Source: Lachnospiraceae bacterium | Lineage (GTDB): Bacteria; Bacillota; Clostridia; Lachnospirales; Lachnospiraceae | Direction of reading: 5' to 3' | Assembly: GCA_017556805.1 (NCBI GenBank) | Contig: JAFYMC010000013.1 | Span: 1 to 64,000 of the forward strand | Length of the DNA: 64,000 nt | Part shown: positions 12,090 through 23,108 of the stretch, one piece after another | Numbering within the stretch: the first letter of the stretch is position 1 | Layout: every line of letters starts with the position of its first letter | Notes under the pieces: generated by a model | Database searches by the model: none | What the model saw: the letters and a program-made list of their open reading frames with translations, nothing else | What the model was told of the DNA's origin: nothing | Position numbers and translations under genes: made by a program

Positions 12090-12350
12090 AATTAACATAG
12101 GAAAAGCGTTAACGGAAAAGAGTAACGCGGACACCGCATCCAGAGAGAGCATCATTTGGTGGAAGATGCTTATGTAGACCCCGCGCGAAAACCATTCTAG
12201 AGCTGCAACGCCGAAAGGAGAGTAAGTGTTGCCGTACACCTGCGTTAAAGGTTAGGATTTGTTGGAATCCGAAGTGAAACATTAAGGTGGAACCGTGCAT
12301 ACAAGCACCCTTAGAGACGCATAAACTGTGTCCCTAAAGGTGCTTTTCTT
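12090..12350 (+). promoter_or_regulatory. T-box riboswitch leader (threonine)
   Basis: This leader senses uncharged tRNA-Thr and allows transcription into thrS only when charging is low. It contains the T-box AAGGTGGAACCGTGC (12284-12298) and an intrinsic terminator AAGCACC.TTAG...CTAAAGGTGCTTTTCTT (12303-12350); the GGTG of the T-box can pair with CACC of the terminator 5' arm to form the antiterminator. The candidate specifier codon is ACC (Thr) at 12191-12193, followed by a purine as is usual. The UGGA of the T-box fits the U discriminator base expected for tRNA-Thr in Firmicutes. Confidence 0.9.
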
Positions 12351-12383: not shown

Positions 12384-12692
12384 ATAACCACCGGCACCCG
12401 AACCGCGGGACGGCTCGGGCGTGGCGAATTCTTATCAGCAAGTCTTATTTGAGATAGTAAGACTTTCGTCAAAGAAACATAGCTTTTGTGCTTTTCCCGA
12501 AGGGTCGCGTACTTAGCGCAGTCGAAATCACCTCCTAGCGGTTCTAAGTCTCGAGGTCGCTCCCGAGAGACGTTTAGAACCGATTGGAGGAAGTTTGACG
12601 GAGCGTTGCGATTTGCACAAAACTATGTATTCTTTGACAAAAGTCGTTTTTCCATAATCCTGCTGATAAGAATGGGCGTCCCGCGTGGTTAT
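12384..12692 (+). repeat. Structured repeat element, copy 1 (thrS leader)
   Basis: A non-coding element related to that at 22843-23108. It has a 5' tag GGCTCGGGCGTGGCGAA (12412-12428), nested inverted arms, and a conserved core (12490-12614). Arms: ATAACCAC 12384-12391 with 12685-12692; CGCGGGACG 12404-12412 with 12677-12685; ATTCTTATCAGCA 12428-12440 with 12661-12673; a 31-base imperfect arm 12461-12491 with 12615-12645. Core: CTTTTCCCGAAGGGTCGCG, TTAGCGCAGTCGAAATCA, an internal hairpin (12531-12590), and GACGGAGCGTTGCGA. It lies between the T-box terminator and the thrS start, so it would be part of the thrS mRNA. Strand given is that of thrS; the true active strand is not known. Confidence 0.75.
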
Positions 12693-22842: not shown

Positions 22843-23108
22843 GGCTCGGGCGTGGCGAATTTTTACAAGCGTACGGGAACGTTGTCATACCATAAAAACA
22901 GCCCCTCACATATATAGTTTTGCTTTTCCCGAAGGGTCGCGCTCTTAGCGCAGTCGAAATCAGCTCTTAGAAAAGACTGGGCGCGAGGCCACACCCGAGC
23001 GTCCTAGTCGTTCTTAGAGGAAGTTCGACGGAGCGTTGCGACTTGCAATAACTATATATGTGAGGGGCTGTTTTTATGGCTTTATAAACTCCACACGCTT
23101 GTAAAAAT
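22843..23108. repeat. Structured repeat element, copy 2
   Basis: Second copy of the element at 12384-12692, in the 388-base spacer between the GNAT start and the last ATPase gene of the export operon. Tag GGCTCGGGCGTGGCGAA (22843-22859); outer arms ATTTTTACAAGCGT (22859-22872) and its complement (23095-23108); inner arms form a perfect 30-bp inverted repeat (22890-22919 with 23050-23079); core CTTTTCCCGAAGGGTCGCG from 22923, TTAGCGCAGTCGAAATCA, internal hairpin (22964-23019), GACGGAGCGTTGCGA (23028-23042). Core sequence is nearly that of copy 1, while the arms are unrelated. The rest of the spacer (22728-22842) shows nothing else. Confidence 0.75.

Follow-up and report, generated by a model that had tools for sequence, protein, structure and literature searches.

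The question raised by this locus is what kind of element keeps its stems paired and not their sequence. The window analysed here, a stretch of 64,000 nt from a Lachnospiraceae draft genome, carries at two places a series of conserved blocks in the same order, separated by arms that differ between the two places and pair within each. A preliminary description, made from the letters of the window, took these for a two-copy structured element without a known name. As to the existence of such an element, at 12384..12692 and at 22843-23108, we can confirm it: the two copies, the four shared blocks and both pairs of arms were all recovered where they had been placed, the arms do pair, and both copies fold far below shuffled sequence, copy 1 at -104.1 kcal/mol (z -7.3) and copy 2 at -125.1 kcal/mol (z -9.6), each versus 100 dinucleotide shuffles. 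As to its nature, we argue that the window sequences are probably copies of a non-autonomous, MITE-like transposable hairpin of ~250-310 bp whose core is structured. Its dispersal, its target duplications and its placement at promoters are observed in a congener, G304, while the membership of the window copies would follow from their homologous core and the same architecture.

Layout of the two copies

Read from the outside inwards, copy 1 (309 bp) begins with an outer stem, followed by the tag GGCTCGGGCGTGGCG and by P1, a stem of 13 bp; a small extra hairpin is possible next, before a P2 arm of 24 nt and the core. In copy 2 the order is tag, a 14-bp P1, a P2 of ~34 bp and core (Table 1). P2, whose arms measure 24 nt (copy 1) and ~34 nt (copy 2), is a second copy-specific stem, additional to P1, that adjoins the core, and copy 1 possesses the further outermost stem as well. 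The core of copy 1 is composed of the CCCGAAGGG hairpin, the TTAGCGCAGTCGAAATCA block, an inner hairpin at 12531-12590 and the GACGGAGCGTTGCGA block. The minimum-energy fold of copy 1 pairs part of the 12405..12411 region otherwise, and the extra hairpin at 12440..12465 is absent from it. A pseudoknot between the TCGGG of the tag and the CCCGA of the first core block, suggested earlier, does not appear to be supported, with CCCGAAGGG predicted to close on itself as CCC-GAA-GGG and with many copies lacking the tag (32 distinct tag contexts at up to 2 mismatches in all the DNA examined, versus 201 distinct elements, other genera included).

Copy 1 sits in the thrS leader, between the T-box and the threonyl-tRNA synthetase ORF (thrS by Pfam), and copy 2 is flanked by a GNAT gene and the gene of an ABC transporter (also by Pfam), the right-hand ABC ATPase being on the - strand. 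The view that the element has no known name agrees with the Rfam comparison: neither window copy matches an Rfam 15 family at the gathering score, the Rfam matches of the window being the T-box and two tRNAs only, and at E values up to 5 copy 1 gives only implausible matches far below the cut-off and copy 2 none. Nor was a description of it found among the listed results of full-text literature searches, which covered few subscription papers.

Table 1. Parts of the two element copies and the neighbouring T-box leader in the window.
Feature	Position	Strand	Remarks
Copy 1 outermost left arm (ATAACCACCGGCACCCGA)	12384..12401	+	First 8 nt pair with 12685-12692
Copy 1 GCGGGAC	12405..12411	+	Can pair with GTCCCGC at 12678-12684; read from sequence
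Copy 1 conserved tag GGCTCGGGCGTGGCG	12412..12426	+	Identical in the two window copies
Copy 1 P1 left arm	12428..12440	+	Pairs with 12661-12673
Copy 1 possible small extra hairpin in P1-P2 interval	12440..12465	+	AAGTCTTA/TAAGACTT, read from sequence; copy-specific
Copy 1 P2 left arm	12468..12491	+	Pairs with 12615-12638; copy-specific
Copy 1 conserved core	12496..12611	+	Covariance model 156.3 bits over 12482-12622
Copy 1 P2 right arm	12615..12638	+	
Copy 1 P1 right arm	12661..12673	+	
Copy 1 outermost right arm GTCCCGC GTGGTTAT	12678..12692	+	
Copy 2 conserved tag	22843..22857	+	
Copy 2 P1 left arm	22859..22872	+	Pairs with 23095-23108
Copy 2 P2 left arm	22890..22923	+	Copy-specific
Copy 2 conserved core	22928..23041	+	Covariance model 149.6 bits over 22914-23052
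Copy 2 P2 right arm	23045..23079	+	
Copy 2 P1 right arm	23095..23108	+	
thrS T-box leader	12100..12315	+	Rfam RF00230, 100.2 bits

Copy number and distribution

Copies were sought by BLAST with copy 1 in its own genome, followed by a covariance model built from 20 copies. The number of two proved far too low, as the core is present 22 times in this 2.9 Mb draft genome (G000), rated 86% complete, and homologues that keep the pairing were found both there and in related bacteria, so that the refutation named in the preliminary description did not come about. Nine of the 10 genomes of the genus are positive, with 3 to 43 matches each, the congener G304 possessing 43, as are 14 of the 299 genomes of the family (the own genome and a congener counted among them). 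When GTDB genomes were scanned with a pattern, 106 stretches were returned, from a set that seems to include the assemblies of G299 and G301-G303 again, merged only where sequences were identical; the 80 titles listed name Lachnospiraceae, Eubacterium, Dorea, Roseburia or 'Clostridia bacterium'. One isolate, Eubacterium plexicaudatum ASF492, classed by NCBI in the Eubacteriaceae, also carries a copy (L215), which, compared with Rfam, gives a single implausible match. Copies of other genera (L215, L035, and L191) share a different terminal repeat, CAATGTCATTNACTTAA.

Different evolution of core and arms

The core, conserved over ~115 nt, and the arms evolve differently. As to the core, the covariation test was favorable in one respect and not in another: in 20 copies with 34 pairs, 65 cells (not independent events) were changed on both sides versus 24.8 in shuffles, with 0 of 500 shuffles as high, while further pair types were not raised (20 versus 22.4); the same alignment lay above all 500 shuffles on four of five covariation measures. 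Across 226 distinct cores, collected with loose patterns (4 mismatches) that may include false matches, G·T mismatches numbered 320 and A·C mismatches 47 of 3755 non-independent cells, with 195 of the 320 coming from two pairs and with the fold predicted by an energy model that accepts G·U. The cores of nine G304 copies (the distinct ones from 12 loci, their cells again non-independent) have 32 G·T and 7 A·C. Because G·T outnumbers A·C, we read the core strand as one that folds; the + strand is kept in a specific fold with G·U and is therefore a probable module of RNA (or of single-stranded DNA).

As to the arms, long arms pair around the core in 94 of the 96 located copies (at least 30 arm pairs each), and of the two exceptions with few arm pairs, one was misplaced by the search pattern and one lies at a contig end. 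The innermost helix measures 27-41 bp in 76 of the 96. Between most copies no arm sequence is shared, and arms differ between most non-orthologous ones. Of 23 groups of copies linked through homologous flanks (for some groups on a single side), those listed include arms that are alike and arms that are entirely different at one place, as in G000_L171 and G303_L111. Certain copies at separate loci have arms in common that carry compensated changes, with covariation at 19 of 100 predicted pairs in five of them.

An RNA strand under selection should tolerate G·U and not A·C. Isolated mismatches within the arm helices are 32 G·T, 36 A·C and 30 other, counted in 178 of 201 elements (a set built with a 3-mismatch pattern and containing orthologues, 23 being dropped for short flanks or weak stems). 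The arms of the nine G304 copies have 21 G·T and 17 A·C, along with 24 arm cells changed on both sides, these cells also being non-independent. Because the two mismatches are equally common, arm pairing seems to be kept at the DNA level; the same equality would result if the two strands were under selection together. Over whole stems with loops included, A·C exceeds G·T (218 versus 158), which could mean that the - strand matters. The preliminary description had taken pairing without conservation as the mark of selected structure: that the element is real and structured stands, but the arms are not borne out as selected RNA, given their A·C count close to the G·T count and the shared terminal repeats of G304, and most likely they pair for another reason.

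The arms match poorly at L010 and L166. At the orthologous sites L166, L139, L098, and L106, the P2 arms of G000 are poorly matched, the left one resembling, by eye, the arm of G299 and the right one that of G302; the mismatched arms of L166 are a possible intermediate of arm replacement. At L063, a terminator tail appears, by eye, inverted on the other side of the element.

Evidence for mobility

Evidence for transposition comes from G304, of which 20 and another 20 stretches were examined. Its arms are a shared terminal inverted repeat, with 161 occurrences at up to 2 mismatches (reversed control 0), unlike the arms of the window's group, which pair but differ between most copies; CTYGAGTTTYCGCATTTTT is the sequence of element ends. 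Full elements of G304 measure 247-271 bp, and several stretches carry shortened or core-less versions. Target duplications are mostly 8-10 bp, the duplication score in the 15 elements with both ends averaging 5.8 versus 0.78 (sd 0.48) in permuted flanks, with scores of at least 6 in 8 of 15 (0.7 expected) and of 0 in 2 of 15. Both window copies score 0, and for this reason our confidence in the mobile hairpin is slightly lower. A scan of all copies gave scores above 0 in 19 of 236 versus 8 of 236 in a shuffled control, with loose patterns (4 mismatches) and with false matches included, two of them in the window; the high score of L035 is an artefact, the repeat being part of the arm.

With 22 copies, and with lengths of 309 bp and 247-271 bp, the elements are short, multi-copy and non-coding, as expected of MITEs. 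As no transposase-bearing element with the same ends was found, we call them MITE-like and not a MITE of a named IS: none carries the terminal ends of G304 among the repeat places listed (part of the 161, in draft genomes), and looking up terminal repeats in plasmids gave nothing useful. The earlier remark that no transposase or reverse transcriptase lies nearby agrees with the 643 ORFs within 2 kb of elements, the 15 families recurring at most loci looking cellular when read by eye, except for one ORF that runs through an element itself. UPF0236, which we take to be the family of the ISLre2/TnGBS enzymes, was found in none of the 10 genus genomes (these being drafts, and the control genomes being silent as well), ISKra4 was not found in the one draft genome queried, that of G304, and Transposase_mut was found in one of the 10, neither G000 nor G304.

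Insertion sites and alternative explanations

In G304, a sigma-70-like -35 box begins 10-13 nt, mostly 11-12 nt, outside 22 of 48 terminal-repeat ends (0.5 expected; custom-made scorer). Promoter-near ends are 11 of 20 on the left of the + strand and 3 of 12 on the right. In the same genome (L330-L349), elements often lie 11-12 bp upstream of -35 boxes, with the one at L349 lying between divergent promoters. Around the copies of the window's group, outward promoters show uneven bins and no sharp peak.

The occupancy of single sites varies within the genus. At the thrS site, G301 has no element, the outermost left arm of copy 1 being missing there too, G299 has a short hairpin, G300 a copy without the left part, and G302 and G303 have other inserts, the one in the G303 leader (L287) being a different GC-rich insert between the T-box terminator and thrS. 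At the site of copy 2, the G300 copy bears unrelated arms, the one in G303 is orthologous, the one in G302 is missing most of the core, and G299 has none. The notion of arms as an inverted copy of the target was rejected, as the G301 thrS site lacks the arms and G304 copies share theirs.

The copies of the window's type have their own site preference, as judged with a custom-made terminator scorer. A strict terminator points at the element and ends 50-100 nt to the right of the core in 27 of 135 copies, versus 0-2 in each other 50-nt bin on that side, and to the left the counts are 9 of 135 at 100-150 nt and 0-4 elsewhere. The right-hand (3'-side) neighbour is on the - strand in 79 of 93 copies, by crude ORF calling that misread the gene to the right of copy 2. 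Such placement at gene ends, with terminators pointing at the element, would suit hairpins that stop transcription from both sides, as bidirectional terminators or insulators, and selection on two strands, penalising G·T and A·C alike, would explain the equal arm mismatches. Terminators do not need a conserved 115-nt core, however, and the target duplications of G304, the placement upstream of outward -35 boxes and the position of copy 1 inside a leader would all be left unexplained, and we consider this explanation unlikely.

Quite unlikely, in our judgment, is a functional non-coding or cis-acting RNA family, its core and arms selected as RNA and its copies spread by ordinary duplication. 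The covariation and the G·U pattern of the core speak for it, as do the position of copy 1 between a T-box and its gene and the presence, in the same frame at L024, of TwoAYGGAY, a proposed CsrA-binding RNA; but the arms lack a G·U preference, G304 has target duplications and fixed insertion positions, and the thrS site is occupied in some members of the genus and empty in others.

Group IIC introns prefer terminators as targets. A SINE-like retroelement, in which a host enzyme copies the + strand core RNA into DNA that enters at terminators in a similar manner, would agree with the core fold and the insertion behind terminators, but inverted terminal repeats and duplications of mostly 8-10 bp would better fit a DDE transposase, no reverse transcriptase is among the 15 recurring neighbour families, and neither the window nor any of the 20 loci scanned has an Rfam intron match, making this origin very unlikely.

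That the copy-specific arms are captured guides against other sequences, RNAi- or CRISPR-like, is barely conceivable in spite of innermost helices of 27-41 bp whose sequence differs between most non-orthologous copies, as a search of G300 at up to 3 mismatches finds the P2 arm of L063 at its own place only, the arms of the two window copies match nothing else convincingly in their own genome, G304 copies have arms in common, and neither plasmids, queried with one whole window copy, nor phages, queried with the other, returned a homologue. An exact pattern of the element had no match in viral contigs. When 402 arm queries were compared with the DNA examined, 222 of 1447 matches fell outside annotated elements; among the 60 of these listed, 40 are a separate repeat inserted in L011 and L022, and the other 20 are copies missed by the pattern, or mostly matches of 15-19 nt.

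A probable mobile hairpin with a folded core

The MITE-like hairpin that we prefer would work as follows. An apical conserved core of ~115 nt would be enclosed by arms that form terminal inverted repeats (P1, P2 and, in many cases, an outer stem), and a putative transposase acting in trans would move arms and core as one unit, leaving target duplications mostly of 8-10 bp, as seen in G304 and presumed for the window copies. Insertion would be directed to the borders of transcription units, in G304 at 11-12 bp upstream of -35 boxes and, by the strict rule, directly behind terminators in about a fifth of the window-type copies. The arms may stay paired through mutual correction at the DNA level, by template switching or inverted-repeat conversion, and the core is probably the hairpin's cargo, a module of RNA (or single-stranded DNA). 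A further idea, tentative and rather doubtful, is that of a mobile frame with an exchangeable RNA core, the new one or TwoAYGGAY, spreading folded domains, possibly protein-binding decoys, to promoters and terminators, its arms kept complementary by DNA-level correction during sequence turnover.

One implication is a warning, that stems that are paired but not conserved, by convention taken to indicate structured RNA, can arise from terminal inverted repeats kept complementary at the DNA level, and counting G·T versus A·C for each helix helps to separate this from RNA selection. Another is the addition of an apparently undescribed mobile family to those of gut Clostridia, one in which insertion at promoters and terminators can be studied as a natural experiment, together with the question of why a strictly conserved folded core should travel on a mobile hairpin.

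Relation to known systems

A revealing relative was found in the own genome. At L024 (G000:C16:50600-54100), positions 1810-1973 match TwoAYGGAY RNA (RF01731, 98.3 bits) within a frame that has the same tag, P1, paired arms and a similar right end as the window element, and a different core; judged from this one case, the frame seems able to accommodate more than one core, and, as a new reading, TwoAYGGAY RNA may itself travel as cargo on an element of this kind. TwoAYGGAY is listed as a probable RNA (PMC2864571), suggested to bind CsrA and described, like the window element, as a conserved core on an external stem that is not well conserved (PMC4333381). The window copies differ from it in having no match to its covariance model up to E 5 (criterion at least 43 bits).

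Prokaryotic MITEs (Correia/NEMIS, QMITE2, ERIC, YPAL/RU-2) are likewise small, (nearly) non-coding and multi-copy, with inverted repeats, target duplications and a transcript forming a long hairpin. QMITE2 has direct repeats of 7-9 bp, terminal repeats of 23-29 bp and a core of 113-145 bp, and the targets of YPAL span or adjoin dyad symmetry. In contrast to these MITEs, the window element is conserved across genera in its core and not in its terminal arms, its core covaries like a single-strand structure, and no parent IS was found for it. The p-MULT 3 and some ISKra4 elements (TnGBS, ISLre2) likewise integrate upstream of sigma-A promoters at a set distance (PMC3942029), but these carry transposase genes and are found 13-17 bp from the promoter (upstream of -35), while the G304 elements lie mostly at 11-12 bp and seem non-coding. 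The mobile/repeat sequence candidates (MRSC), a set of 250 from a pipeline for discovering bacterial RNAs (PMC11109978), likewise have many structured copies per genome in inconsistent orientation. A REP element, a palindrome of 20-40 bp (PMC3733652), was rejected on size, the window element measuring ~250-310 bp with a 115-nt core.

Variation in the core itself was also seen. At L025 (G000:C25, ~1640-1760), a core-deleted hairpin keeps the arms and the core edges, the core middle being gone. Some cores (L011 at 1400-1598, L022, L121, L150, and L151) contain an inserted GC-rich block of 83 nt (TCGCTCGGTCGCGGGCGCGTTCGCATG...), which is also present elsewhere, at L300 without the core, and is apparently a second small dispersed repeat of the genus.
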